Source: a virus
Direction: 5' to 3' (one strand)
DNA length: 32,453 bases
IMG/VR virus record: IMGVR_UViG_3300020176_000052
Location: 1-32,453 of that record
Numbering within the stretch: position 1 is the first letter of the stretch; each line of letters starts with the position of its first letter. Position numbers and translations under genes: made by a program. Below are positions 9,474-32,453 of this stretch, piece by piece. Under the pieces are notes generated by a model. The model was not told where the DNA came from. It saw only the letters and a list, made by a program, of their open reading frames with translations, and made no database searches.

Positions 9474-10556
9474 CTACTTTTTAGTTGGAGAGTCGTCACC
9501 TGCAGAACCAGATTCGGGAGAGACGGGGTCGTCTCCTAGTAACGAACGGTGAGCAACCTTAAATTTATTTTCGATGGCTGTGGCAAAATCGGTCTTCTCT
9601 AGAATCGTCTTCCAAAAATCGGCCTGGAGTGTGTCCTTCATTCGAACATTACCAGAGAGCTCTTCTTTGGTTTCTGGATTGATTGCCATGTACCATCCGT
9701 TCTTCGGCTTGATAACATATCCCATATCAATGGCAATTTCGGTAAAGCCAGACCAGCGTTCGATTCCGCCTTCCCATGATACAGAAATAGGGATCTTAGA
9801 TTTTTCTTTAACGAATCTGGACTTCTCAACGTTAACAACAAAGTCATATCCAATAACCTCGGTTCCTTTCTTATCCTGCCGCCGGCCGATAATCCAAACG
9901 TTATCAGCACTGTACATCACGCCCGTTCCCCCACTAACAATTTGCTTAGGGAAAAGGCCTTGCTCTTGGTAGGTGTGGTTAATAGCGAGGAGTGGGATAT
10001 CGTTGATTGTAAGGAATGGTGTAACCATTCTAAACAGACCTTTAAGAGCCTTTGCTCTTGTCATATCAGCCACAGACTTTTCGTTGATCGCATCTTCAAC
10101 TTCTTTCTTTGAAGCGATGTTACCAACCGAATCAATAATTACAATAACCTTATCCTTTCTTTCAATTTCTTTAAGCTGATTAACAAGATCAAACTTAAGT
10201 TCCTCGATGTTTGTAACGGGACAGTGAAGAACCCGACTTGTATCAATATCAAAAGATTCAAAGTAAGCCTGAGGAGAACCAAACTCAGAATCATAAAAAA
10301 TCAGAGCGGCATCTTTATGCTTTTTAAGATAAGCACCAGCCATAAGAAGTGCGAAGCTTGTCTTGAAGTGTTTACTTGGTCCGGCCAAAACGGTAAGACC
10401 ACTTGCAAGTCCGCCGTCAATGCTTCCGCTTAGAGCGACGTTGACCATTCCCACCGGGGTTGAAGTTAAATCCTTTTCAGAAAAGAACTTTGAATCAGAG
10501 AGAATATCCGCACCCTTAACACGGGTGGTTTTCATCAGTTTATCAAGTAATGCCAT
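9474..10556 (-). CDS. uvsX: UvsX, RecA-like recombinase
   Basis: A 360-aa RecA-family strand-exchange protein, close in length to T4 UvsX. Walker A is GPSKHFKT (59-66); a FYDSEFG segment follows, then Walker B in VIVIIDSVG and a conserved LLAINHTYQE loop, all characteristic of UvsX. The C-terminus is acidic and Ser/Pro-rich. It acts in recombination-dependent replication and repair by forming filaments on ssDNA. It has its own early promoter (10585-10613), which lies inside the end of the upstream methyltransferase gene. The leader is about 22 nt and shows no Shine-Dalgarno sequence. The helicase gene gp41 lies two genes downstream. Confidence 0.96.
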   Translation of the reverse strand: MALLDKLMKTTRVKGADILSDSKFFSEKDLTSTPVGMVNVALSGSIDGGLASGLTVLAGPSKHFKTSFALLMAGAYLKKHKDAALIFYDSEFGSPQAYFESFDIDTSRVLHCPVTNIEELKFDLVNQLKEIERKDKVIVIIDSVGNIASKKEVEDAINEKSVADMTRAKALKGLFRMVTPFLTINDIPLLAINHTYQEQGLFPKQIVSGGTGVMYSADNVWIIGRRQDKKGTEVIGYDFVVNVEKSRFVKEKSKIPISVSWEGGIERWSGFTEIAIDMGYVIKPKNGWYMAINPETKEELSGNVRMKDTLQADFWKTILEKTDFATAIENKFKVAHRSLLGDDPVSPESGSAGDDSPTKK

Positions 10557-10584: not shown

Positions 10585-10613
10585 ATTATAAACTATATTC
10601 TTATGAATGTAAA
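10585..10613 (-). promoter_or_regulatory. Early-type promoter TTTACA-N17-TATAAT (uvsX)
   Basis: -35 TTTACA at 10613-10608, 17-bp spacer, -10 TATAAT at 10590-10585. It overlaps the last codons of the C5-methyltransferase gene (stop at 10601). The predicted +1 near 10578 gives a 22-nt leader to uvsX. Confidence 0.85.
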
Positions 10614-11851
10614 TCAAAAAATGCGTCCAACTCCAAAGTATTTGATACTTCGTTTCCATCTTCGGTCAGAACATCTTGCTTTTTATTATTCTGTCTTACA
10701 CGTGGGGTAGGAGCAAATTCAGTATGTCCTTCTAAGTAAAGTAAAACATTCTTCATCATATCTTCAGCAGTTGAAGCAGGTACGTTCTGGCAAATATGAT
10801 TTACTTTAGAACGAACGTTTTCACCGACCAAATTAAAATCATCAGGCATCTTCATGATACGCAAGCAATCTCGAATCGTAATCCAATTATCAGTATAAGG
10901 ATTTAAAAGGGAATGGGGTAAAGCTCCAATCAGCGCTGGAATTTCGTTTCCTCGAGGAATGGTAATACCGTGAGCCCAGTAACCTTTTCCCTGATCAAGT
11001 TTCTCTTGCATTGCCCTGGCGCGGGCTCCAACCTTATCATGGCCGTTAGCCTCCATCCAGTCAGCTACATCAGAAAGACCTTTATTATATCCTCCGTCCG
11101 AATGAACAATGAGATTTTCAGTTTTAGTGAAAGTCTTTTGAAGTTCTGCAATGGTTTTTGTTCCTGTAGCTGCAAGTTGATACTGCAGCCATGAATTATC
11201 GTATGGCGAGTTTTGGTTCGCGGTAACATTCATTGGGTCATCCTTAATTGGCTTTTGTTTAAGGATATCTTCAATACTTTCCTGAGGCTTTCTATACCAA
11301 GGGAAGATTGGTGCTGTTTTAGAATCTGTAAAGAAGTAAAAGGTTCTAGGTCGCTTCTGTGATAGGCCGTGAAGACGGCTTTCGGTGTAATACAGATTAA
11401 GACTGTAACCATGTTCTTTAGCGATTTCAGCCAACTTATCGGCTACAGCGGAGCCTGCTTTCGTAAATAGCCTAGGCGCGTTTTCGCCCCAGAATACTCG
11501 AGGCTTTACTTTTCCAAGAACGTAATTTGCGGTAAGATACATCCAATCGTTTGCTGCATAATCAACACCACTGTTTACGTTTAAGCTAGAAAGACCTGCA
11601 CAGGGACAAACCGTATTAACAACGTCAACCTTTTCGGGAACATAGTTTTCATTGCCTTCTTCATCTAGATAGGTATACTCTCCGGTGTATCCTTTACCGC
11701 GGATGTAATCAATAAAGTGTTCATCATTTGCCGTAAAGGGTTTATAAGAAAGAACCCATTCAGGAAGCTGACCTTCCATGGCATTCATCACACCAATGTT
11801 CTCTCCGCCAATTAATGGAACAATGGTTCCGTATGTAGTTTTGTTTTTCAT
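10601..11851 (-). CDS. C5-cytosine DNA methyltransferase-like protein
   Basis: A 416-aa protein with the C5-methyltransferase motifs in order. Motif I-like LIGGENIG is at 13-20. Motif IV VCPCAGLSSLN has the catalytic Pro-Cys at 83-84. Motif VI is ENAP (123-126, usually ENV) and motif VIII is QKRPR (165-169). A C-terminal motif IX/X-like stretch is RIMKMPDDF followed by QNVP. The family moves a methyl group from SAM to cytosine C5. Motifs I, IV (PCAG rather than PCQ) and VI are atypical, so specificity may be altered. It lies directly downstream of a hydroxymethylase/glycosyltransferase block, so a role in base modification or anti-restriction is likely. No Shine-Dalgarno sequence is seen. Confidence 0.8.
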   Translation of the reverse strand: MKNKTTYGTIVPLIGGENIGVMNAMEGQLPEWVLSYKPFTANDEHFIDYIRGKGYTGEYTYLDEEGNENYVPEKVDVVNTVCPCAGLSSLNVNSGVDYAANDWMYLTANYVLGKVKPRVFWGENAPRLFTKAGSAVADKLAEIAKEHGYSLNLYYTESRLHGLSQKRPRTFYFFTDSKTAPIFPWYRKPQESIEDILKQKPIKDDPMNVTANQNSPYDNSWLQYQLAATGTKTIAELQKTFTKTENLIVHSDGGYNKGLSDVADWMEANGHDKVGARARAMQEKLDQGKGYWAHGITIPRGNEIPALIGALPHSLLNPYTDNWITIRDCLRIMKMPDDFNLVGENVRSKVNHICQNVPASTAEDMMKNVLLYLEGHTEFAPTPRVRQNNKKQDVLTEDGNEVSNTLELDAFFDLHS

Positions 11852-11862
11852 AGTTAACTAAT

Positions 11863-13377
11863 TTAATTATTCAATTCATTTTTAACAACCTGTGTCATTT
11901 TCCACTGTCTTTCAGGATCGTCGTAGTGTAAAGGAATACACGTCGCTAGGAGGAGTAGACCTCCATCCAATATTTGTTTTACAGGTAAATTAAATTCTTC
12001 TAGTTTCTCTACAAACACCTTCTTAACAGTTTCGTTTTGGCTGGTGTTGGAAACAATGGAACTATACCCATGATAAAGATCGTGCGCGAGTTTACACCAA
12101 TCATAAAAGTTATCGCCGATGGTACCAATCAAGCCACCGTAGTTTCCTCTTGGGTCAATAAACTTAAACTGATTTGTATAGTGGTTATAAAGTATGTTAC
12201 CAAAGTGGAGATCCCCGTGATGAACATCTACAGGTGTAACACTGTTCCAAATATCATACGCGGTATCAATAAGTTTAGACTGTTCTTTAGGAGTCAGGGG
12301 GACATCCGCAAGTCGTGTTTTTGATTTATCGACCCAGATGTTTTTAGAAAGTCCTACAAACCCATCATGGTGGGTTTTTACAAACCTATTACACTTTTCA
12401 ATCGGAGTCGAAAAGTAATTAGCTTTAATCCTAAACAGCTTGTCCATAATAAATGACCAGTTGGCTTCTGAAAGATTTTCATACAGCATAAGATCTGAAA
12501 GCAGGGATCCAGATTCGTATGACATTATTAGATCCGTTTTATGCGGGAGAATCCTAGGGACAAACATACTCTGTTCGGCCGTGATAGAATTATACCACGA
12601 ACGCTCTGCGTGTAATGTATCTACACTATGCTTTGACGTATAGTCAGGAGTCTTGGTAACGGTACCAAGATCGTCGTTAAATGCAATGTTATTAAATGCG
12701 CGACTTTTAAGCCGTAAAAGCTTTGCGCAAGTTTCGTGATAAACACTTAGTGTACCAATGTCGTACCATTCGGTTGTTCGTTGATCAGCAAACACCAAAG
12801 CATTGTTAAGGCTTTCGTATCCCTGCAGCGCAGATGAGATATCATAGTCAGAAGATTCATCAAATGCCTGCTTTGCCAATTCCCCGTTCTTAAAAGAATA
12901 CAATCCTACCAGTGCAACACCTCCTTTGATGTTTTTCTCTGGCTTGTCAAAGTAAGTGGTTCCGTCCCACATACACCAAGAAGAGTGATTCTCAACTTCC
13001 TTACATAGCAGGAAGTCGGTTCCAAGATCCATGTTTTCAGTTAAGATGATTGCATCTCCAAGCCATACGACAGTGGGACGAGGAACGACAATCTCCCCAA
13101 AGCCAAGGGCAATCGCTGGTCTAGGACCGTTAAGTGTCTTTTGTTTTACAAATTTAATCTCTGGATATTTCTTAGAACAGTATTCACGAACATCATCAAA
13201 CTTACCGTCAACAATAACAATCTCTTGAATGTCTGCAAGCCTTTTTGCTTGCTCTATAATATAATCAAGACAGGGTTTACCGTTAACCCTGACCATGATT
13301 TTGGACATGTTATTTGAAAGCGGCTTTAAGCGAGTTGCCTCTCCAGCTGCTGGGATGATAAGATTAATCTTCTTCAT
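11863..13377 (-). CDS. Fused sugar/choline-type nucleotidyltransferase and APH-like kinase
   Basis: A 504-aa two-domain enzyme. The N-terminal half (about 1-240) is an NTP-transferase: PAAGEATRLKPLSNNMSK carries the G-x-x-x-R-x-x-P-x-(5-6)-K signature near residues 9-26, with VWLGDAIIL later for the metal site. The C-terminal half is a choline/aminoglycoside-kinase fold with catalytic HHGDLHFGNIL (386-396) and metal motif IDPRG (407-411). Together they could phosphorylate a small alcohol or sugar and activate it to an NDP derivative, as LicA and LicC do for choline or as sugar kinase/pyrophosphorylase fusions do. I choose ATG 13377 because upstream codons overlap the HAD gene; the overlap is then 14 nt. 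It probably supplies an activated donor to the neighbouring glycosyltransferase. The substrate is unknown. Confidence 0.8.
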   Translation of the reverse strand: MKKINLIIPAAGEATRLKPLSNNMSKIMVRVNGKPCLDYIIEQAKRLADIQEIVIVDGKFDDVREYCSKKYPEIKFVKQKTLNGPRPAIALGFGEIVVPRPTVVWLGDAIILTENMDLGTDFLLCKEVENHSSWCMWDGTTYFDKPEKNIKGGVALVGLYSFKNGELAKQAFDESSDYDISSALQGYESLNNALVFADQRTTEWYDIGTLSVYHETCAKLLRLKSRAFNNIAFNDDLGTVTKTPDYTSKHSVDTLHAERSWYNSITAEQSMFVPRILPHKTDLIMSYESGSLLSDLMLYENLSEANWSFIMDKLFRIKANYFSTPIEKCNRFVKTHHDGFVGLSKNIWVDKSKTRLADVPLTPKEQSKLIDTAYDIWNSVTPVDVHHGDLHFGNILYNHYTNQFKFIDPRGNYGGLIGTIGDNFYDWCKLAHDLYHGYSSIVSNTSQNETVKKVFVEKLEEFNLPVKQILDGGLLLLATCIPLHYDDPERQWKMTQVVKNELNN

Positions 13378-13732
13378 TGTAATTCCAAGATGCAAATTGA
13401 TCAAGTGTCATGGCTTTATCATCAACATAGTATGTACTTGCATAAGGCTTTCCAAAATGAATTTGATTGTAAGGAACACCATGACGGGATAGCCAAGAAG
13501 TAGTTATAATGCCAATGTCAGCAATGATCTTCTCGACATCTCCGTCGTGTGTTAGCATCCGTCGTGCGGAAGAGATAGTAATGTACCATCCATCATCAGC
13601 CATTTGCTGCATCTTTTCAATAAGAGGAAGGTTGGGTTTAGCTAACCCGTACTTTTCGTAACTGTCCTTTTTGGAATGATCTGGAAAACAGATAGTGTCG
13701 TCCATATCAAAAACGATTGATTTTTCTTTCAT
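13364..13732 (-). CDS. Small HAD-superfamily phosphatase
   Basis: A 122-aa HAD hydrolase. Motif I is FDMDDTI (8-14, nucleophile and acid Asp), motif II is ISSARR, and motifs III/IV are represented by GKPYAST and YVDDKAM. It is short and lacks a large cap domain, as do capsule-biosynthesis phosphatases that act on sugar phosphates. It lies between the glycosyltransferase and the nucleotidyltransferase-kinase, overlapping the latter by 14 nt and the former by one base, so the three are probably made together. A role in preparing a sugar or alcohol for transfer is inferred from this context. Confidence 0.8.
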   Translation of the reverse strand: MKEKSIVFDMDDTICFPDHSKKDSYEKYGLAKPNLPLIEKMQQMADDGWYITISSARRMLTHDGDVEKIIADIGIITTSWLSRHGVPYNQIHFGKPYASTYYVDDKAMTLDQFASWNYNEED

Positions 13733-15003
13733 TATAAGATTTCTTCTACACCTTTTAGGAGTGTGTTGTTCATGTATGTACCGTCGTAGTATTCATCTAG
13801 CAAAGCTTTATCAATAGCATCCCGCAGCTGATCATACGCCTCTGGGTTTTCCTCAAGGAATTTAATCTTATCAAAAAGTTCCTTTGAATCCTTTACGCGA
13901 AGAAAGGCTGGAACATCTAAGTGCTTTTGCTCATCATAAGTTGGATGCAGGAACGGGATAATTCCATAATGAGCCATCTCCCAAAACTTAGCGGTAACCC
14001 ATCCCTTTTTAATCGGAATGCAAAAAGTATACTTGACACGAGGAAGCATGCTTTGTAATTCGTTGAATTTCTTAGGTCCTTTGAATCTGTTATCATCACC
14101 GATTGTATCTGGATTCCACTTGCCATAGATATCAACATCTTGCACGTGGTCAAGTATGTATTTTTTCAAATCGGGATACCTAGACGGAAGGCCTTCGTTA
14201 CATACAACCATAAAGTTAATATCCTTCGCGCCAGATTCAGAATCAGGTTCGGCATCGCTGAAAAAGGAATCAAGCGAAGATTCTTCTTTTGTAATCGCTT
14301 CACCTCGAGTCTTACCAATAAGAAATATCGTTTCCATCGCTTTGTATTCTTGAGGGATCCGTATTGTGAAGTCTTCTGCTGAATCGTATTCCTTACAAGC
14401 AATGTGATCGCAGATGCGTTCGTATTGTGAATAAATCTTTTTAGGTGGATTCATCAAGTCCCTCATCTTCCCAGGGTAAAGGCGGGGATCGTTTAAGACC
14501 ATAATCCAAGGGATATCTCGATAGGTATTTAAGTAGTGAATGGTTGGACCTGCGTACAACTTTTGAGCGTCAAGAGGAGTTGCTAGTGTATCGCGCTCTT
14601 TTCGCCGTCTAGCCCACCCTACAACATTAGAGGTTGCGACCAATCCCTGAAGCATGATGGCAGCATCTACTTTTAAGTCGGGGTTAGTAAGAATGAATTC
14701 CTCCATAAATGCCTGATTGCCGTTAGGCCGAATCACACCATCTCTTGACATAAAAACATTAGACTTCCAATCTGAAAGTCCAGCCCATGCATCAATAAAG
14801 TTACGATGTTCGTTTATGCGTTCTTTATCTGCAAGAGGTAGGCGAGAATAATCGCTTTGCCCCAGCATAATAAAAGTGTGCTGGGGATTATTACGAATAA
14901 GATTTTCGTATAAGATAGGAGCTTCATTATCTCCGCCTACTGCACCCCAGTTTTCGCTGTCGAATAAAACAGACCTTCCGATTTTTCCAATTCCGATTTT
15001 CAT
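13732..15003 (-). CDS. Putative glycosyltransferase (GT-B-like)
   Basis: A 423-aa protein. The C-terminal half ends with KFWEMAHYGIIPFLHPTYDE and then an acidic helical tail. This is the layout of GT-B enzymes, where a Glu near the E-x-(A/H)-x-G-x-x-P segment binds the sugar nucleotide. The N-terminus (KIGIGKIGRSVLFDSENWG, then FIMLGQSDYS) looks like a Rossmann-type first domain. No signal peptide is present, so the acceptor is intracellular. Given the dCMP-hydroxymethylase-type enzyme, deaminase and nucleotidyltransferase around it, the acceptor may be hydroxymethylcytosine in phage DNA, but a protein or glycan acceptor is not excluded. It overlaps dCMP deaminase by 4 nt. Confidence 0.65.
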   Translation of the reverse strand: MKIGIGKIGRSVLFDSENWGAVGGDNEAPILYENLIRNNPQHTFIMLGQSDYSRLPLADKERINEHRNFIDAWAGLSDWKSNVFMSRDGVIRPNGNQAFMEEFILTNPDLKVDAAIMLQGLVATSNVVGWARRRKERDTLATPLDAQKLYAGPTIHYLNTYRDIPWIMVLNDPRLYPGKMRDLMNPPKKIYSQYERICDHIACKEYDSAEDFTIRIPQEYKAMETIFLIGKTRGEAITKEESSLDSFFSDAEPDSESGAKDINFMVVCNEGLPSRYPDLKKYILDHVQDVDIYGKWNPDTIGDDNRFKGPKKFNELQSMLPRVKYTFCIPIKKGWVTAKFWEMAHYGIIPFLHPTYDEQKHLDVPAFLRVKDSKELFDKIKFLEENPEAYDQLRDAIDKALLDEYYDGTYMNNTLLKGVEEIL

Positions 15004-15443
15004 TGATCTATATATGTGGTCTTTATTCCGGCTTCACGGAAGAAGATTTGAGCAAGGTCGCATGAATCATTCCAGCGATTATCTTTTGTTTCTTTTCGCA
15101 TTACCACCTTCTTGATTCCAACCTGAATGATCGCCTTTGCGCATTCGTGGCAAACGGGTAATCCATAAACATAAATGGTTGAACCATAAAGTGAAACACC
15201 CGTGCGGGATGCGTTGTAAATCCCATTCATTTCCGCATGGGAAATCCTTTTGTATTTGGTTTCTCGGTGAGCATAAAGCTCATCCAAGTCGCTCATTCCT
15301 CGAGGAAATCCATTGTATCCTTGGGAAAGAACTTGGCCAGAGTCGCCAACAATGACCGCCCCGCATTGAGTTGAAGGGTCTTTTGACCAAGAAGAGATTT
15401 CTTTAGCCAAAGAGATATAACGCCCGTCCCAGTCAGTAAACAT
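15000..15443 (-). CDS. cd: dCMP deaminase
   Basis: A 147-aa zinc-dependent deoxycytidylate deaminase (dCMP to dUMP). The zinc site is HAEMNGI (His69, Glu71) plus PVCHECAKAI (Cys98, Cys101). N-terminal WSKDPSTQCGAVIV and GYNGFPRG are typical of the family. The enzyme controls the dCTP/dTTP balance and here sits four genes from a hydroxymethylase-type enzyme. That matters because dCMP is the substrate of both. The gene overlaps the glycosyltransferase by 4 nt (ATGA) and follows the DUF1599-like gene by 4 nt, so all belong to one operon from the promoter at 15811-15839. Confidence 0.93.
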   Translation of the reverse strand: MFTDWDGRYISLAKEISSWSKDPSTQCGAVIVGDSGQVLSQGYNGFPRGMSDLDELYAHRETKYKRISHAEMNGIYNASRTGVSLYGSTIYVYGLPVCHECAKAIIQVGIKKVVMRKETKDNRWNDSCDLAQIFFREAGIKTTYIDQ

Positions 15444-15447
15444 AAAC

Positions 15448-15804
15448 TTAGTCTTCTGTATCTAAAGGCTTGACGCGATTTAAAAAGTCGCGGTTTGGAT
15501 CCTGACCGTCAACACCGCCTCGGATAAAGGAGACAGCAAAGCTTGCATAGTTAATCATGTCTTTGAATGAATCTTCAACCGACTCGAAGTTTGGCTCGTA
15601 GGAAGGATCAAGTTCCATTGCTTCAATAACGCTTTGAGCGCGAAGCACTTTGGCATAAATGATTTCAAGAATCGTTTTTACTCCACTTGGATAGTAATCG
15701 GATTGACGAATTCTTGACTGAGGGTTCTGATAGTCGTTTGACTTTTTAAGTTGCAGTTCTGCGCATTCTTTTAAAACACGAAGGCTTTCTTTATCGTTAT
15801 TCAT
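15448..15804 (-). CDS. DUF1599/Nmad1-like nucleotide-modification-associated protein
   Basis: A 118-aa all-helical protein with KKSNDYQNP near residue 20 and ESVEDSFKDMINYASFA near residue 85. This pattern (KxxDY...ExxxDxxNYA) resembles DUF1599, named nucleotide-modification-associated domain 1, which is related to MazG-like NTP pyrophosphatases. The frame opens upstream at 15897, but ATG 15804 is the start because the promoter -10 box ends 6 nt before it, so transcription should begin at the A of this ATG. It could hydrolyse unmodified dNTPs or process modified ones. The family call is from pattern recognition only. Confidence 0.65.
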   Translation of the reverse strand: MNNDKESLRVLKECAELQLKKSNDYQNPQSRIRQSDYYPSGVKTILEIIYAKVLRAQSVIEAMELDPSYEPNFESVEDSFKDMINYASFAVSFIRGGVDGQDPNRDFLNRVKPLDTED

Positions 15805-15810
15805 GTTACT

Positions 15811-15839
15811 ATTATACACTATATTTGGGTGAATGTAAA
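15811..15839 (-). promoter_or_regulatory. Early-type promoter, leaderless (TATAAT-N6-ATG)
   Basis: -35 TTTACA at 15839-15834, 17-bp spacer, -10 TATAAT at 15816-15811, then 6 nt and ATG at 15804. The predicted +1 coincides with the A of ATG. Confidence 0.85.
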
Positions 15840-15842
15840 TAC

Positions 15843-16508
15843 TTATTTGACAAACTTGAAGTGGCGTTCGTACACGTGAAGTGAGCCAACTTGCCACGTA
15901 ATATCACCGACTTTATAATCGGCTTCACCAAGACGGTTAATATCAGCAACAAGATTTTGAAGAACATGCAGTTGCCAAGCATAGTCATTGCGATAGCCAA
16001 AGATAACATCATTGCTTCGCATTTGAACAACTGCATTCACTTGGTTTCCTCGGATGAGATACTGAACTGCGTTTGTGCAGATAAAGTCAGACATGCCATT
16101 CGCGGAAAAGTCAGTATGCATTGTAGGGCGTTGATAAATCATCACTGCCCTGCGAGTTTGGCGATCTGCAAGAAGCTGAGTTAAAACCTTTTGGTATTGA
16201 TTAAAGTTTTCATCACTGTTGATAAGGTATCCATAATTGGAGTTAATCTGCCCGCTATCAGAGGAAATGCTTTTCCAAATAGCAGGTGTTTCACCGGGTA
16301 TATCTTCAACGTTCAAGCTTTGGCTTTCATACCAAGCGATTTCACGAGAGATGTATTCTTCATTAGGTGTACCAAAGATTGCCGGAGCATCAGCAAGAAA
16401 GCTCGCACCAACAAGGTCAAGTGTTTTAACACCGGTTTTATCTTCTACGTATTCTTCATTCTCAAGTGCAGAAATGAAGTAAGAACGTATGTCTTTTATT
16501 GTTTGCAT
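15843..16508 (-). CDS. Thymidylate synthase-family enzyme, probable dCMP hydroxymethylase
   Basis: A 221-aa enzyme of the ThyA/dCMP-hydroxymethylase fold. TRR (118-120) binds phosphate, Cys144 in DFICTNAVQYLIR is the nucleophile, RSNDVIFG (164-171) matches RSxD of the family, and SLHVYERHF (209-217) matches the HxY motif. Counting 11 residues from the RS arginine, as in E. coli ThyA where Asn177 reads the uracil ring, gives Asp175. Asp at this position marks T4 dCMP hydroxymethylase (Asp179). The likely product is 5-hydroxymethyl-dCMP for modified DNA. A caution is that Asn174 is next to it, so a one-residue shift would restore a thymidylate synthase reading. ATG 16508 coincides with the predicted transcription start. 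Confidence 0.8.
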   Translation of the reverse strand: MQTIKDIRSYFISALENEEYVEDKTGVKTLDLVGASFLADAPAIFGTPNEEYISREIAWYESQSLNVEDIPGETPAIWKSISSDSGQINSNYGYLINSDENFNQYQKVLTQLLADRQTRRAVMIYQRPTMHTDFSANGMSDFICTNAVQYLIRGNQVNAVVQMRSNDVIFGYRNDYAWQLHVLQNLVADINRLGEADYKVGDITWQVGSLHVYERHFKFVK

Positions 16509-18239: not shown

Positions 18240-19493
18240 CTATTTTACGCTATGGCCGTAAGAAAGATTCTCCGGAAGGGGAGATAGCGAATTCATGGCC
18301 GAAAATAGTTCTGAAAACTTGTCTTCAAAAACATCGCCAATCAGCAAATCTGTTAGGGTACCTTTCAACTCGGGGGTTTCCTTTATCAGATCAGCAAAGT
18401 TAAAGGTGGGATGATAAAAGGCATAAACGATTTTTCTCATTCGTTCAATAGCATCACATAACGATTTTCCGTACTCGGCGAAGCAATCCTTTTCCGACTT
18501 TGGCGTGGTGAGATGAGTGTGAATTGCGTCGGCGGCAAGTTCGGCTGATTTAAGAGCAAGGAAAACACCCGATGAAAAGACGGGATCAAGAAAGGCAAAG
18601 GCATCACCTACTAAAACCATACCAGGTGTTGCGCAATGGGTAGCACGATAGCTATAGTCGCCAGTGACCCATGTTTGACCAACTTGCTCGGCCGTGGAGA
18701 GGGAATCCTTTATCCACAAGTTGTTTTCAATCTCGCGTTCGAGTATCTCCTTTGGATCTTGTGTGTCAGAAAAAAGATAATCTCGCTCAGCAACAATGCC
18801 TAACGAAACTCGGTCGCCTTGTTGAGGAATGTGCCAGAACCAACCTTTGTTTGGTAGCGCGGCTATAGTCGTTGAACCTTCGTCGATTCCACAGTTTCTT
18901 TTCCCGCCTTTGTAATAAGTCCAAATGGCTACCTTGTTTAAGCCTGGATCACGCTGTCTCCACTTTGACTTACTTGAATAAAAGCAGTCGCGGCCAGATG
19001 CATCAACTATTTGTTTACAATGAAACCCGCGTAAAGTGCCTTTGTGTTTAGCGACAAGACCCGTGATTCTTGCAGTGCGTTGATCGTAAGTGGTAGAAAG
19101 AACTTTGCTTTCATCACGAAATGTAGCACCATTACTTACCGCCTTTTCAATCAGCATTTGGTCAAACGCTGCACGTTCAACTTGCCAGGTGATAGAGGAA
19201 GGATGATCCTTATGATCAGAGAAATAAAACGGACTACTCACCTTTCCTTCTTCGGAAGCAAATTGAACGCTGTGTTTTTTCTGAAAACCGATTTCATCCA
19301 TACGGGAAACCAAGCCCAGTCGATTCAGTGTATACCAACAAAAAGGCATAAGGCTTTCGCCAACGTGATACCTTGGAAACTTTTCCTTTTCCAGTATAAG
19401 AACACTATGGCCTTGCTCGGCAAGCAGTGCTGCAGTTGTACTTCCTGCAGGGCCTCCGCCAATTACAATAACATCCCACGTATCTTTAAGCAT
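18240..19493 (-). CDS. Flavin-dependent halogenase-like FAD oxidoreductase
   Basis: A 417-aa flavoprotein. The N-terminal FAD-binding motif is VIVIGGGPAGS (8-18). FPRYHVGESLMP (39-50) is the conserved segment of flavin-dependent halogenases and their geranylgeranyl-reductase-like relatives. GWFWHIP (217-223) matches the GWxWxIP motif of flavin halogenases. GDAFAFLDPVFSSG (296-309) is the second FAD/ribityl motif of the phenolic-type (CndH-like) branch. The family uses FADH2, O2 and halide to halogenate aromatic substrates, though some members only oxidise or reduce. I place the start at ATG 19493, overlapping the stop of the upstream membrane gene (TGATG). A terminator follows. Viral halogenases are known from marine phages (VirX1); the substrate here is unknown. 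Confidence 0.75.
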   Translation of the reverse strand: MLKDTWDVIVIGGGPAGSTTAALLAEQGHSVLILEKEKFPRYHVGESLMPFCWYTLNRLGLVSRMDEIGFQKKHSVQFASEEGKVSSPFYFSDHKDHPSSITWQVERAAFDQMLIEKAVSNGATFRDESKVLSTTYDQRTARITGLVAKHKGTLRGFHCKQIVDASGRDCFYSSKSKWRQRDPGLNKVAIWTYYKGGKRNCGIDEGSTTIAALPNKGWFWHIPQQGDRVSLGIVAERDYLFSDTQDPKEILEREIENNLWIKDSLSTAEQVGQTWVTGDYSYRATHCATPGMVLVGDAFAFLDPVFSSGVFLALKSAELAADAIHTHLTTPKSEKDCFAEYGKSLCDAIERMRKIVYAFYHPTFNFADLIKETPELKGTLTDLLIGDVFEDKFSELFSAMNSLSPLPENLSYGHSVK

Positions 19494-19699
19494 CAAAGTA
19501 AAAACTTCCCTATGATACCAACAGCGGTCATTGCTCCGTTGGTAATGATAATTGGTTTGTCTTTCATTCTAATGCCGGCGGTTAGCCAGATCAGACCTCC
19601 AAGAATTTGAAGATACCATCCAACTGCAACGCCAGCACTGAATAGGCCAAAACCAAGAATAAGGAAGGCCGTGGCCGTCCATTTCAAAATGCCTGTCAT
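19493..19699 (-). CDS. Small two-helix membrane protein (68 aa)
   Basis: A 68-aa hydrophobic protein. A first membrane segment (about 7-27, ATAFLILGFGLFSAGVAVGW) is followed by a second hydrophobic stretch (LQILGGLIWLTAGI) and a third weaker one near the C-terminus. The KDKPIII loop is positively charged. Its stop overlaps the halogenase-like ATG (TGATG), so the two are translationally coupled, and a functional pair is possible (for example membrane anchoring or substrate uptake). It also recalls small SemiSWEET-like or LpxB-N-like membrane domains, but is too short to be sure. Confidence 0.65.
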   Translation of the reverse strand: MTGILKWTATAFLILGFGLFSAGVAVGWYLQILGGLIWLTAGIRMKDKPIIITNGAMTAVGIIGKFLL

Positions 19700-20960: not shown

Positions 20961-21368
20961 TTATACGCCTGTAAGCGTACCGTGATTACCTTCGTGACTT
21001 GGGTTCTCCCATCCTTCGGGCTTAATCAAATCTGGAAGTCCGAGGGGATTCGGCCGTTCTTCTTTAATGCCAACTTCCTTTGCCATATTTGCCTTATGAA
21101 CTTCGTCCCACGCTTTATAAGCATCAACGCCAAAAGCATCAAGAGTTCCAATCGCGACGACGCATAGGTCAATCAGCCCATCCACGACTTCTTCTGCATC
21201 AACCTCGTAAACCGCCGCTGACTTTGTTTCGTTAAGTTCTTCGTCAAGAAACCTTAGTCTAAACTCAAGGAACTCCTTCAGCTTCTTTTTATCAAAATCC
21301 TTAACGGCTTCGTGAACACCGAACTTGCGGTGCATATCATTTATATCTTTTACCCAGTCTTTACTCAT
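20961..21368 (-). CDS. MazG-like nucleotide pyrophosphohydrolase
   Basis: A 135-aa helical protein with the all-alpha NTP-PPase pattern: LEFRLRFLDEELNET (ExxE-type helix) followed by EEVVDGLIDLCVVAIGTL (ExxD metal site) and ending KAWDEVHKANMAK, typical of MazG and phosphoribosyl-ATP pyrophosphohydrolase-like proteins in marine T4-like phages. These enzymes hydrolyse NTPs or dNTPs to monophosphates. In phages they have been linked to nucleotide pool or ppGpp control. The frame is open upstream into the gp43 end, but ATG 21368 avoids the overlap and begins the conserved part. It is co-transcribed after gp43. Confidence 0.8.
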   Translation of the reverse strand: MSKDWVKDINDMHRKFGVHEAVKDFDKKKLKEFLEFRLRFLDEELNETKSAAVYEVDAEEVVDGLIDLCVVAIGTLDAFGVDAYKAWDEVHKANMAKEVGIKEERPNPLGLPDLIKPEGWENPSHEGNHGTLTGV

Positions 21369-21384
21369 AGTTGTTATATTATAG

Positions 21385-23874
21385 TTATCCAAAAAATTGT
21401 TCAAGGTCGGCCACAGGTTCTACGTGCCAACCAATTGCGTCAAGAATCATCTTGATCGGATCAACAAAAGTTTTGCTGAACTGTAATTCATAGTCAATGT
21501 AACGATCAAGTTCAAGTTCGGTCGGAAGATGATCGGGAAAGGAGATGATATTCTGCTGAATAGGATTAGGCTTTTTAAGATATACAAACTTAATCTTATC
21601 ACCGCTTTGAATAAGAGGAAACTGCTTATCGAGTCCACGGTCCTTAATTGCTTTGTTATACAGCAGCGAACCTCTTACGTGAATAGGTGTACCTTTTTCA
21701 AATATAGTATTTGTGTTTGCCCACTTACGAAGAGCGTTAACACCACGGGGAAAGGCAACCTTATCCGCTGGAAGATCGCAGAAGTGAGATTTGAAAAGTT
21801 GAATTGCTTCTTGTGTTTTACCTTCATCACCAGTCATGATAATCTTGAACATTGCGTTCATAGCTTCTCGACAGACTTGCGGAGTTGAACTCTTGATAGC
21901 CTCAATACCCATGATCTTGATCTTTGGTTCTGCATACTGAACACCTTCATTGTTATGAACATTGAGGATGTATCGTTTCTTAGCAGTCCAGATTCCACGA
22001 TCGGCAATAGCTTCTCTTGCCATAACCATACGGTTGGTATAAGCGTTACTTGATTCGGCAAACTCATCAAAAGCTTTTACGAACATCGGCTCAATAGCTT
22101 TGGAACCAAACTCATCAAGGAATGCAACGGGATCCTTTGGTTTAAACTTATCAATTACGTCCTTTGCTGACACGTATAACGAGTCAGTATCAATCGCAAT
22201 AACACGATCCTTCTTTTCTTTGAGAAAGTCGTCAAGAAAATCATTTAACTTTTCTTCAGCATACTTAATCACAGCTTGGCCTGTTAGAGTAATTCCTGAA
22301 GCAATACGAAGATCAAAGTAACGAAAATATTTGTTACCACACGCTCCGTACAAAGAGTTAAGAAGAATCTTAACCGCCATCTGAGAAGTATCAAGTCTGG
22401 CCACGTCACCTTCGGCAACCTTCATTCCTTGCTTATCGGATTTTGAAACCTTTTCCAATCTTTGCTTGGCAAGAATCATATCATCTTTGATTTCAACACG
22501 CTTGGCATAAAGCTCTTCAACAATCTCTGGAATAATTCCCTTCTTAGCTTTACTAAACACAGCACCGTTTGAAGCACGTGCACCAATAGGATCTTTCATT
22601 GGGAGCAGCGTTTCGGGCGACATGTTATATTGAACAATAAGATTAGGATACAGAGAGTTAAGGTCAAATGACATAACCCAGTCATGCATACCAACGTGAG
22701 GTTCCTTTACATACCCTCCTGGGTAACTTTCGGAATAGTTGTCTTTGCTTGGTAACACGGCAATCTTTTTATTAGCCAGGCGGCGGAAGATAATGCTGTC
22801 CCATATTGCTGTAGTGCCAAGGGTATCTGTATAATTCACGCCGCCAAGATAAGCCATTGTTAGGACAAGCGTAATAAGGCCGAGCTTTTCTTCCATACGA
22901 TCAACCAGCTCAACATCCTTGATGTTATAGTCAACAAACATCTGATAGTCTGCATCATAAAGATCGCGGAGAGTACCAATCTCTGAATAGTCAAGTTTCT
23001 TCTCGCCAAGAACCACACTCGCAATATGATTAAGCGAATAAGACTCTTGGTTACCATAGGTATAAGCAAACTTCTTAAAGAGCTCCATGTAGTCCAATGA
23101 CTGAACCCCGCTTATATCAAAAGTAACTTGTGTCTTACCCATGATGGTAATCTCACGACGATTAATCTTACCCCAAGGTGAAAGACCTTTGGCGGTGTTT
23201 TCTCCAAGAAGAATCGCGGAGCGAGCAATAAGATAAGGAATATCAAAGAACCTTGTATTCCATCCCGTGATAACATCAGGTGTGTAATCAGGCTGAGACC
23301 AATGATCAATAAAGTCGTGAAGCATTTCAGCCTCAGATTCAAACTGACGATACTCGATTTTAAGGTGAGTCAGTTTAGATGCAGCCACATCATAAGGCTT
23401 TAAGCCCCATACACGATACCGATCTTCTTTACTTGATTTGTACGCAAGTGTAAGGATTTCGTTTGTGGGATTATCAACATCGGGAAACCCGTCACCGTAA
23501 CTCGTCTCAATGTCAAGAGAGGCGACATCAATGTTGGCGCGAGAATAATCAATTTCACCTGGAAACTGACTTTGAATAAAAGCAGGAATGTGACGGGTAT
23601 TGCCATAAAGGTTGAAGTCAGGTACTCCGTCATAAGTCTTTTCAAACTGTCGTACCTCGGCCATTGATTCAAAGCGCATAGGCTCAACCGGTGTACCGTC
23701 AAGCGCTTTCCATTCAGTGTCATCGGATTTTGACTGAAGAAAAAGCTGAGGACGGTAACGAATCTTTTCACGGACTTTATTCCCTTGGTCGTCGTAACCG
23801 CGATAAAGAAGTGAATTGCCATAGCGGTCAACACAGGTGTAAAACCCATTTTTAATGTGGTCGGTTTTTAGCAT
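21385..23874 (-). CDS. 43: DNA polymerase, T4 gp43 (family B)
   Basis: An 829-aa family B polymerase with proofreading. ExoI is SLDIETSYG (DIE at 121-123), ExoII is in TGWNTRFFDIPYL and ExoIII is in DYNIKDVELVDRM. Polymerase motif A is FDLNSLYPN, motif B is KILLNSLYGACGN and motif C is AIDTDSLYVS. The C-terminus ends in EQFFG, like the clamp-binding tail of gp43. The length is slightly below T4 (898 aa). The open frame continues upstream, but ATG 23874 lies exactly 6 nt after a TATAAT box, so the transcript is predicted leaderless. It divides from the plus-strand late gene at 23934 and is translated with the MazG-like gene behind it. Confidence 0.97.
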   Translation of the reverse strand: MLKTDHIKNGFYTCVDRYGNSLLYRGYDDQGNKVREKIRYRPQLFLQSKSDDTEWKALDGTPVEPMRFESMAEVRQFEKTYDGVPDFNLYGNTRHIPAFIQSQFPGEIDYSRANIDVASLDIETSYGDGFPDVDNPTNEILTLAYKSSKEDRYRVWGLKPYDVAASKLTHLKIEYRQFESEAEMLHDFIDHWSQPDYTPDVITGWNTRFFDIPYLIARSAILLGENTAKGLSPWGKINRREITIMGKTQVTFDISGVQSLDYMELFKKFAYTYGNQESYSLNHIASVVLGEKKLDYSEIGTLRDLYDADYQMFVDYNIKDVELVDRMEEKLGLITLVLTMAYLGGVNYTDTLGTTAIWDSIIFRRLANKKIAVLPSKDNYSESYPGGYVKEPHVGMHDWVMSFDLNSLYPNLIVQYNMSPETLLPMKDPIGARASNGAVFSKAKKGIIPEIVEELYAKRVEIKDDMILAKQRLEKVSKSDKQGMKVAEGDVARLDTSQMAVKILLNSLYGACGNKYFRYFDLRIASGITLTGQAVIKYAEEKLNDFLDDFLKEKKDRVIAIDTDSLYVSAKDVIDKFKPKDPVAFLDEFGSKAIEPMFVKAFDEFAESSNAYTNRMVMAREAIADRGIWTAKKRYILNVHNNEGVQYAEPKIKIMGIEAIKSSTPQVCREAMNAMFKIIMTGDEGKTQEAIQLFKSHFCDLPADKVAFPRGVNALRKWANTNTIFEKGTPIHVRGSLLYNKAIKDRGLDKQFPLIQSGDKIKFVYLKKPNPIQQNIISFPDHLPTELELDRYIDYELQFSKTFVDPIKMILDAIGWHVEPVADLEQFFG

Positions 23875-30868: not shown

Positions 30869-30989
30869 ATGTTGTTTATTGTAGGCGGCCTGATTTGTTA
30901 TAGATTGGCTCAGACCGAAGCCAAGTTGTTAAATTAGAAAGGGACTGGACCTTCAGCAGGAGTATTATCAGCAGTTGCTGTTTCCTCAG
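30869..30989. repeat. Direct repeat, left copy, flanking the methyltransferase cassette
   Basis: It matches 31961-32073. Both contain ATGTTGTTTATTGTAGGCG (19 nt), a diverged middle around TTGGCTCAG, and 49 identical nt at the right end (30941-30989). It includes the last 17 codons, stop and 3' flank of the methyltransferase gene. Confidence 0.9.
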
Positions 30990-31938
30990 TTGTAGCAGCA
31001 ATTCTGTCTTTAATAATCTGACAGTATTCTTCTGAGTATTCAACACCAACTGAGTTGAATCCCAGTTCTTTTGCTGCAATAAGAGTAGTACCACTGCCAG
31101 CAAATGGATCATAGACAGTACCACCCTTTGGTGTAATGAGTTTGATAAGGTACTTCATTAACTCAAGATTCTTCACAGTAGGGTGATCATTTTTGATAGT
31201 TTTATTGTGAGTTCTTTCTTTCACAGAACTTTTGGTAGAGTAGAAGAACCTACTAGCAGTACCAGAATCACAGTAAGTGGTTTCACCAATGTATCCACCC
31301 CCACCAAAAACTCCACCATCATACTGCTTACCTTGATAGTCTTCGACTCCATAGTTCCTAGACCATCCGTTACCACGGTCTCCAAACTTAGCAAAATGTT
31401 CTTCCACTTCTTCACTTCCATCGTGCAGAACATTACCTGGCCAACGTCCAGACTCTAAACGAGTATCTTCAATGTTAATACCACCAACACCATGAGTTTG
31501 ACAATTCTTTACAATAGTCTTCTCTTCAATTGGTTTCTGAGCAAGAAGAATAGGTTCATAACATGGTTTGAGACCAGTTCCCCATCCTTTCCAAGCAGGA
31601 TCTTTCTTACCAATGTTCTGACTCTTCGGCATACCCTGCCCATACAACCACATCAAAACATCTTTAATCTTAAGACCAGAGTCTTCCACAGCGCACACGA
31701 GTCTATGGAAAGTCTTAGAAGCACCAAAGATCAAAAGATGCCCTCCAGGTTTCAGAGTCTTAGCAATCGATTGCCAGGTCTCTACCTTAAAAGCAACACA
31801 GTTTTGATACGAATCCCACCCATTGCCTAGGTACTCAATACCATATGGAGGATCAGTTACGATAGAATCAAACAGTTCTCCATCATAGTTGTTTGAGAAG
31901 AGAACACAATCATCATTATGAAATTCAGAGGTAGGCAT
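30934..31938 (-). CDS. Adenine-N6/cytosine-N4 DNA methyltransferase (beta-type)
   Basis: A 334-aa methyltransferase. Catalytic motif IV DPPYG is near the start (29-33) and SAM-binding motif I DPFAGSGTT is near the end (277-285), the order of the N6_N4_Mtase beta group. It methylates DNA bases with SAM, probably against restriction or for regulation. I choose ATG 31938, preceded by GGGAGA at a 6-nt spacing, rather than the ATG at 31983, which lies in the repeat. The last 17 residues, EETATADNTPAEGPVPF, are identical to the end of the CobS-like ATPase upstream. Direct repeats of about 115 bp flank the gene, so it looks like an inserted cassette. No restriction enzyme gene is seen. Confidence 0.92.
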   Translation of the reverse strand: MPTSEFHNDDCVLFSNNYDGELFDSIVTDPPYGIEYLGNGWDSYQNCVAFKVETWQSIAKTLKPGGHLLIFGASKTFHRLVCAVEDSGLKIKDVLMWLYGQGMPKSQNIGKKDPAWKGWGTGLKPCYEPILLAQKPIEEKTIVKNCQTHGVGGINIEDTRLESGRWPGNVLHDGSEEVEEHFAKFGDRGNGWSRNYGVEDYQGKQYDGGVFGGGGYIGETTYCDSGTASRFFYSTKSSVKERTHNKTIKNDHPTVKNLELMKYLIKLITPKGGTVYDPFAGSGTTLIAAKELGFNSVGVEYSEEYCQIIKDRIAATTEETATADNTPAEGPVPF

Positions 31939-31944
31939 CAAAGG

Positions 31945-31950
31945 TCTCCC
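31945..31950 (-). promoter_or_regulatory. Shine-Dalgarno GGGAGA of the methyltransferase
   Basis: GGGAGA on the minus strand, 6 nt before ATG 31938, decides the start over the upstream ATG at 31983. It is not inside the shared repeat, so it came with the cassette. Confidence 0.7.
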
Positions 31951-31960
31951 GGCGTTATTT

Positions 31961-32073
31961 ATGTTGTTTATTGTAGGCGACATAATTTATTATAGGTTGG
32001 CTCAGGTCGGGACCAAATTAGAACGGGACTGGACCTTCAGCAGGAGTATTATCAGCAGTTGCTGTTTCCTCAG
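31961..32073. repeat. Direct repeat, right copy, flanking the methyltransferase cassette
   Basis: The partner of 30869-30989. It holds the 3' end, stop codon and downstream spacer of the CobS-like gene. The 49-nt block 32025-32073 is identical to 30941-30989. Confidence 0.9.
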
Positions 32074-32453
32074 CATCAGGATCAATCTCACCTGTATCAA
32101 TCTTAGTGTAAAGATCGAGAAAGGCTTCTCGGGTTTCCGTTTCAAAACGGGAGATGCACATCTTGATTGCCGTAAGGCGATTCGCAAAGATTGAATACGC
32201 TTTGGCAATGTGGCAAAGTCGTCGAGTAGAAACCACTTCGTCAACACCGTCATCATCAAACGTCTTTCGAATGATCTTACTCCATGCAACAAGCTTGGTA
32301 ACAAACTCAGAGTCGTCAACGTCATAGCTGTTCATGTGCTTTTCAACAATTTTAGTTTCGATCGGAGAGGTTGGGAAGGGCTGATCAATGCTGGCCACAA
32401 AGCGCTCAAGAAAGGCTTCATCAATAACCTGTGCGGCTACAAATCGACCATCA
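32018..32453 (-). CDS. CobS-like AAA+ ATPase (5' end beyond window)
   Basis: The C-terminal 144 residues of a frame that continues past the right edge. The visible part begins DGRFVAAQVIDEAFLERF and continues with IDQPFPTSP, followed by a helical lid with VSTRRLCHIAKAYSIF. This matches the end of the MoxR/CobS-like ATPases common in marine T4-like phages (porphyrin-chelatase subunit homologues of unclear phage function), where LxRF precedes the lid and an R-finger-like RR follows. The Walker motifs lie outside the window. The C-terminal tail after IDTGEIDPDA is shared with the downstream methyltransferase. Confidence 0.7.
   Translation of the reverse strand, partial: DGRFVAAQVIDEAFLERFVASIDQPFPTSPIETKIVEKHMNSYDVDDSEFVTKLVAWSKIIRKTFDDDGVDEVVSTRRLCHIAKAYSIFANRLTAIKMCISRFETETREAFLDLYTKIDTGEIDPDAEETATADNTPAEGPVPF

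Follow-up and report, generated by a model that had tools for sequence, protein, structure and literature searches.

The viral record IMGVR_UViG_3300020176_000052 from IMG/VR carries a seven-gene cassette that probably specifies the glycosyl-hydroxymethylcytosine pathway of a T4-like phage, a reading to which we give a probability of roughly 0.75. The window, meaning the whole stretch of DNA analyzed, is this 32-kb virus record (32,453 nucleotides), which is a fragment, as are most of the related contigs. All seven genes named in a first-pass annotation of this DNA were found where it had placed them, on the minus strand and with the families it had named: a ThyA-like enzyme, a DUF1599-like protein, a deoxycytidine monophosphate (dCMP) deaminase, a glycosyltransferase (GT), a HAD phosphatase, a fused nucleotidyltransferase/kinase (NTase-kinase), and a homologue of the C5-cytosine methyltransferases (MTase homologue) (Table 1). 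The computed evidence consists of the gene identities, the gp42 type of the ThyA-like enzyme, the fold of the GT, its exchange with known DNA GT families, and conserved C-terminal tails.

Table 1. Positions of the cassette genes, sequence motifs, and related features in the window
Feature	Position	Strand	Basis
dCMP hydroxymethylase (gp42 type), predicted	15843..16508	(-)	56% identity to T4 gp42; PDB 1b49 E 1.4e-83
Asp175 codon, pyrimidine-reading residue	15984..15986	(-)	aligned to gp42 Asp179 / ThyA Asn177
DUF1599/MazG-like all-alpha protein, probable dCTP-removing pyrophosphatase	15448..15804	(-)	phrog_18404 hydrolase 1.7e-9; DUF1599 sub-threshold
dCMP deaminase	15000..15443	(-)	PF00383 6e-20; phrog_174 6e-43
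Glycosyltransferase, GT-B, nearest in fold to T4 beta-glucosyltransferase	13732..15003	(-)	AlphaFold + Foldseek; BFVD
HAD phosphatase, EcbF/BcbF capsule-biosynthesis type	13364..13732	(-)	TIGR01689 4e-22
Fused sugar-1-phosphate nucleotidyltransferase / APH-like kinase, putative donor synthesis	11863..13377	(-)	PF00483 1e-12; phrog_4098 7e-28
C5-cytosine-methyltransferase homologue, altered motif I	10601..11851	(-)	PF00145 2e-14; AlphaFold pLDDT 86
MTase-homologue motif I, VPLIGGE instead of LFAGIGG	11801..11821	(-)	Pro12, Leu13 in 79/80 members
MTase-homologue motif IV CPCAG, catalytic Cys84	11594..11608	(-)	Cys84 in 80/80 members
C-terminal clamp-binding-like motif LDAFF of MTase homologue	10616..10630	(-)	75/75 distinct members, 9% expected
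Matching tail LEQFF of phage DNA polymerase gp43	21391..21405	(-)	11/11 polymerases
Second MazG/PRA-PH-like protein, possible further nucleotide pyrophosphatase	20961..21404	(-)	PF01503 7e-10
UvsX recombinase, downstream cassette border	9474..10556	(-)	phrog_97 4e-83

The ThyA-like enzyme and the predicted base

The ThyA-like enzyme is, from its sequence, a predicted enzyme of the dCMP-hydroxymethylase type. It matched PF00303 (1e-17) and phrog_160 (2.5e-51), its best solved relative by sequence was T4 dCMP hydroxymethylase, and its identity to T4 gp42 (56%) compares with 27–28% to RB69_048 and Thanatos TH_065. This comparison of enzyme classes matters because RB69-type DNA is now described as containing arabinose linked to 5-hydroxycytosine, made via a thymidylate synthase (TS) homologue that acts as a 5-hydroxy-dCMP synthase (PMC13390438). 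The earlier description of RB69 as a phage with glycosylated hydroxymethylcytosine is thus corrected by later work, and the RB69 TS homologue is 27% identical to the window enzyme. In the alignment, Asp175 shares a column with T4 gp42 Asp179 and E. coli ThyA Asn177, supporting the pyrimidine-reading role proposed for it, and Asn174, whose placement at that position had been named beforehand as contrary evidence, lies one column earlier. The catalytic Cys is kept, as in gp42. The columns of ThyA Trp80 and Asp169, which are folate-site residues, hold Trp and Asp in the window enzyme and in all gp42-type relatives, whereas they hold Ala and Asn in the RB69 and Thanatos enzymes (RB69_048 and TH_065). 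The Ala/Asn pair is a possible sequence mark separating the 5-hydroxy-dCMP-synthase type from the gp42 type. The C-terminus of the window enzyme is approximately 20 residues short of that of T4 gp42, as in many relatives.

The 56% identity to gp42, the Asp175 column, and the retained folate-site residues support the cytosine-hydroxymethylating enzyme of the first-pass annotation, and a 5-hydroxy-dCMP synthase of the RB69/Thanatos type was rejected on the low identity to those enzymes and on the folate-site Trp and Asp. A search for the U32-like protein (PF01136) was positive only for RB69 and Thanatos, with none found in Pseudoalteromonas phage vB_Psh_XG4 (XG4) or in any cassette contig searched. 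Because the enzyme has gp42-type identity, the folate-site Trp and Asp are kept, and the U32-family protein was not found, the base in the DNA of the window phage is most likely hydroxymethylcytosine.

The DUF1599 match in Pfam fell below the cut-off (20.1 of 25 bits), although a 50% identical homologue adjoins gp42 in Serratia phage PS2. The protein is present in 29 of 31 dereplicated loci, and its role in removing deoxycytidine triphosphate (dCTP) as a pyrophosphatase is probable. In the related contigs L014–L023, a 249-amino-acid open reading frame (ORF) with an HD_4 domain, resembling hydrolases of guanosine tetraphosphate (ppGpp), lies between the hydroxymethylase and DUF1599 genes. A gp1-type hydroxymethyl-dCMP kinase was detected with the PF21448 family model in the 170-kb record behind L019 and the 107-kb record behind L020; a single-sequence search with T4 gp1 gave no match outside T4.

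Glycosyltransferase and sugar donor genes

The matches of the GT in a Pfam scan were all sub-threshold (PF00852 and PF13524), the T4 beta-glucosyltransferase (BGT) family PF09198 gave no match in that scan, and single-sequence and profile searches against solved structures returned nothing usable. An AlphaFold model was built with 18 relatives (predicted local distance difference test, pLDDT, 79; predicted template-modeling score, pTM, 0.80). When the PDB was searched with this model using Foldseek, ranks 1–6 were all T4 BGT (E 6e-8 to 9e-7, template-modeling score, TM, 0.44–0.60), and in BFVD, which holds predicted viral structures, rank 2 was a named DNA beta-glucosyltransferase. Because the global TM is just 0.44–0.60, the fold class and the nearest relative are supported, not the details; at that level, the model agrees with the GT-B-like fold proposed earlier. 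In related marine-type contigs, the GT slot is occupied by a DNA alpha-glucosyltransferase (AGT; PF11440) or by TAGT (PF20691), and across 60 loci, the upstream GT was beta-GT-like in 42 and AGT in 18 (four of those with TAGT), which shows that T4-like phages swap sugar modules while the core of the cassette stays constant. The BGT-like fold and the swap with DNA GT families both support the presence of a DNA glycosyltransferase in the cassette.

The match of the HAD protein to TIGR01689 (EcbF/BcbF capsule phosphatase) lies under the model's strict cut-off despite its E-value of 4e-22, and the protein is 27% identical to RB69_051 and 44% identical to the HAD protein of Enterococcus phage 9183. 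The NTase-kinase has an N-terminal nucleotidyltransferase and a C-terminal APH-like kinase; its match to phrog_4098, the family of Thanatos TH_063, spans residues 10–454, and it is also similar to RB69 ORF052/053. The first-pass annotation had suggested that this fusion would suit a donor other than host uridine diphosphate (UDP)-glucose and that the modification may be new. The first suggestion is supported, but the fusion itself is already known as the RB69 ORF53_52c / Thanatos TH1_060 type (PMC6024577, PMC12838424). The RB69 fusion is thought to yield UDP-arabinose (PMC6024577); that of Thanatos, a phage with deoxypentose on the cytosine of its DNA, is essential (PMC12838424). The HAD protein and the NTase-kinase resemble these pentose-donor enzymes, and the likely product is therefore hydroxymethylcytosine decorated with a sugar, perhaps a pentose, that the phage itself makes. 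The two genes co-recur in XG4, Enterococcus 9183, RB69, and Thanatos. That the transferred sugar is a pentose is our best guess, held at slightly under even odds.

Alternatively, the GT may use host UDP-glucose, yielding T4-like glucosyl-hydroxymethylcytosine, and the HAD protein and NTase-kinase may have another purpose, for example in building a surface glycan. The nearest fold, T4 BGT, is indeed that of a UDP-glucose enzyme, and the HAD family is named for capsule biosynthesis. However, the donor genes are located between the GT and the MTase homologue, and donor-making genes are present in 41 of 42 loci with a beta-GT-like GT versus 14 of 18 AGT loci, which argues against host UDP-glucose; the 42nd beta-GT-like locus, L075, has a nucleotidyltransferase-HAD fusion. 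Furthermore, the unrelated Enterococcus phage 9183 keeps HAD, NTase-kinase, and GT next to a D-type TS homologue. We consider this use of UDP-glucose improbable, and the same linkage and recurrence led us to reject, as the principal interpretation, donor genes unrelated to DNA modification. Less probable still is 5-O-glycosyl-5-hydroxycytosine as in RB69 and Thanatos, in which the ThyA-like enzyme would make 5-hydroxy-dCMP and a pentose would be attached directly to the ring oxygen: the donor enzymes are shared with both phages, but the identities of the window enzyme, its Trp80 and Asp169 columns, and the U32 searches of XG4 and the cassette contigs all speak against it.

Other donor modules occur elsewhere, comprising a HAD-kinase fusion, an HldE-like nucleotidyltransferase, and in some cases an epimerase; in L033 (5478–7999), L062, and L065, the fusion, the nucleotidyltransferase, and an SDR epimerase are encoded ahead of the same GT. 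In the heptose pathway, a kinase, a HAD phosphatase, and a nucleotidyltransferase act in comparable series. The nucleotidyltransferase-HAD fusion of L075 (8207–9741; also in L079 and L080) adjoins a 145-amino-acid glycerophosphodiester-phosphodiesterase-like protein, and L142 (955–2250) encodes an inositol-1-phosphate-synthase-like protein close to an MTase-homologue cassette, perhaps for another decoration.

The C5-methyltransferase homologue and its C-terminal tail

Of all the cassette's components, the MTase homologue is the one that never varies and has the least explanation, a point overlooked in the first-pass annotation. A scan identified at least 593 relatives, of which 80 were kept, ranked by similarity and most from one clade. 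The PF00145 model aligns to the protein from profile position 56 onward only, and the PDB matches of its AlphaFold model are C5-MTases. Motifs IV (PC), VI (ENx), and VIII (QxRxR) each occur in 80 of 80 members, and the PCAG motif, earlier singled out as unusual, does occur in the window protein and is shared by 79 of 80 relatives. The standard S-adenosylmethionine (SAM) motif I, FxGxGG (LFAGIGG in E. coli Dcm), is replaced by [IV]PL[IV]GGE in nearly all members; hhalign comparison of the family with Dcm was too weak for a safe alignment of motif II, and we therefore make no claim that the ribose-binding Glu is lost.

Wherever 5 kb or more of sequence was available upstream of the MTase homologue (60 loci; 31 representatives at 90% identity), this upstream sequence encoded, without exception, both an enzyme of the gp42 type and a member of a DNA GT family, the family models used having been built from these same loci. 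Outside the main clade, XG4 encodes the MTase homologue near the hydroxymethylase, HAD, NTase-kinase, and GT, and cyanophage S-TIM5 combines it with an Asp-bearing TS homologue, with a PF11440 alpha-GT elsewhere in the genome. The S-TIM5 "thymidylate synthase" (L052, 6769–7605, minus strand) carries an Asp in the column of ThyA Asn177; with its AGT, S-TIM5 probably also has glycosylated hydroxymethylcytosine. The MTase homologue was not found in T4 and had no match in Enterococcus phages. Ten bacterial contigs, almost all of them metagenome bins, also gave matches; since most likewise carry the hydroxymethylase and deaminase, these contigs are probably phage.

The end of the MTase homologue is disordered and variable apart from [LIM]xx[FY][FLIMVT], which is present in all 75 distinct members against an expectation of 9% derived from shuffled tails. 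Among other families, the motif occurs in the DNA polymerase (11/11), AGT (22/27), TAGT (4/7), and beta-GT-like (2/28) proteins, and in most others at near zero. T4 gp43 (ASLDFLFG) and gp55 (SLDFLYEAND), which are known gp45 binders, have tails of the same kind. The AGT and beta-GT-like counts agree with the binding of gp45 that was shown for T4 alpha-GT and not for beta-GT (PMC13216743). On this basis, the MTase homologue looks tethered to the gp45 clamp by its tail, although the XG4 and S-TIM5 members are without the motif. In the window, an adenine-specific DNA methyltransferase-like protein (30934–31983) and an adjacent unrelated ORF (32018–32398), both on the minus strand, have the common tail EETATADNTPAEGPVPF.

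The MTase homologue may be an ordinary SAM-dependent 5-methylcytosine methyltransferase whose only role is to protect cytosines left unmodified or to imitate host methylation, and which accompanies the cassette through inherited gene order. In its favor are the overall C5-MTase fold, the catalytic motifs, and, at most loci, a common gene order with the core replication genes; against it, 79 of 80 members carry the same type of change in motif I, the family co-occurs with a D-type TS homologue and a DNA GT in XG4 and S-TIM5 outside that gene order, and the cytosine C5 would be blocked if all cytosine were hydroxymethylcytosine. We regard this explanation as plausible, at rather less than an even chance. 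In a more speculative and, in our view, unlikely scenario, the protein is no methyltransferase: it would keep the covalent cytosine chemistry (Cys84, Glu123, Arg167/169), have lost the standard SAM loop, ride the gp45 clamp, and act on hydroxymethylcytosine in new DNA. It might then remove or replace the hydroxymethyl group at chosen sites or use another cofactor, and the sugar could be placed or omitted in a sequence-dependent pattern.

The cytosine carboxymethyltransferase CmoX (PMC12783734, PDB 8yf3) is likewise a C5-MTase homologue in phage hypermodification and gave a weak profile and fold match. However, CmoX, with its defining SPPC motif and an Arg that binds Cx-SAM, uses unmodified cytosine as its substrate, whereas the window protein has CPCAG and a changed motif I and belongs to a hydroxymethylcytosine pathway; CmoX membership was rejected on the motif (PMC12783734). 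A search for TET dioxygenase (PF20515) gave no match, but its control was silent as well, so this negative carries no information.

Gene order, proposed pathway, and related systems

The window is T4-like, with gp45, gp44, gp62, RegA, and gp43 upstream of the cassette and UvsX and gp41 downstream, all on the same strand. The cassette occupies the gp42/beta-GT position of T4, between gp43 and uvsX, where T4 has gp42-beta-GT-uvsX and PS2 has gp42-TAGT-beta-GT-uvsX. The related contig IMGVR_UViG_3300018413_000031 (L010) is the same as the window record across the compared part, and a megablast search of phage records with the cassette region gave no match. The overlapping starts and stops described earlier hold for deaminase/GT (4 nt), GT/HAD (1 nt), and, if ATG 13377 is used, HAD/NTase-kinase (14 nt), but gaps separate hydroxymethylase and DUF1599 (38 nt, if ATG 15804 is used) and NTase-kinase and MTase homologue (11 nt); both starts were preferred over the longest ORFs. 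Three minus-strand TTTACA-17-TATAAT sites (11/12 matches; 16543–16515, 15839–15811, and 10613–10585) directly precede the hydroxymethylase, DUF1599, and UvsX starts, the second within the hydroxymethylase/DUF1599 gap. They are sigma-70-like and putative internal promoters.

From this gene content, we infer the chemical steps of the pathway, including the donor and the linkage. The MazG/DUF1599-type pyrophosphatase would convert dCTP to dCMP, to which the gp42-type enzyme would add a hydroxymethyl group; the product would be phosphorylated and incorporated by gp43, so that cytosine becomes 5-hydroxymethylcytosine in DNA, and dCMP deaminase would divert the remaining dCMP towards deoxythymidine monophosphate. 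In parallel, the HAD phosphatase, kinase, and nucleotidyltransferase would turn a sugar phosphate into a nucleoside diphosphate sugar (our best guess is a D-arabinose-type pentose). The beta-GT-like enzyme would then attach this sugar to the hydroxymethyl groups of the DNA and so protect the genome against nucleases. The MTase homologue would be tethered by its tail to the gp45 clamp and may work on freshly replicated DNA.

Several points weigh against this pathway. The window has no gene for the hydroxymethyl-dCMP kinase, and a search of eight cassette contigs, mostly fragments, recovered the enzyme in only two. An arabinose-5-phosphate isomerase (SIS, PF01380) was found only in RB69 among 15 records, with none in XG4 or the cassette contigs, the window being fragmentary; the sugar therefore need not be arabinose, and the host could supply the precursor. 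T4 alpha-GT, a gp45 binder, is without the exact tail motif. Finally, because most loci belong to one phage clade, part of the MTase-homologue linkage is shared ancestry.

The cassette resembles the T4 gp42/beta-GT module in its gp42-type hydroxymethylase, beta-GT-like fold, and gp43-uvsX location, but adds the HAD protein, NTase-kinase, and MTase homologue, and its GT is too diverged for a sequence match. It shares HAD and the fused NTase-kinase for a phage-made donor with the pentosyl-5-hydroxycytosine pathway of RB69 and Thanatos (PMC6024577, PMC12838424, PMC13390438), from which it differs in TS-homologue class, in GT, in the absence of a U32-like protein from the cassette contigs searched, and, relative to RB69, in the absence of the isomerase from these contigs. 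XG4 and Enterococcus Denvervirus 9183 encode a HAD protein, an NTase-kinase, and a GT of the same family next to a D-type TS homologue, with 29–33% identity to the window in GT and NTase-kinase, and these genes are annotated as hypothetical or not at all; XG4, unlike the Enterococcus phages, also shares the MTase homologue.

Near the cassette, the window encodes a flavin-dependent halogenase (18240–19496, minus strand; PDB 8zop, 2e-60; CmlS/PltA-like, with a WFWHIP motif), otherwise found only in the closest relatives, L010–L012. In L035/L036 (5950–10000), UvsX is split into several pieces by long ORFs, probably inteins, introns, or homing genes.

Hydroxymethylcytosine with a phage-made, perhaps pentose, sugar is a predicted base whose combination of features we did not find in the literature, and the cassette exposes a large phage family of C5-MTase homologues, with at least 593 relatives, associated with hydroxymethylcytosine and DNA glycosylation. 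Such modified bases determine which restriction and CRISPR systems act on a phage.

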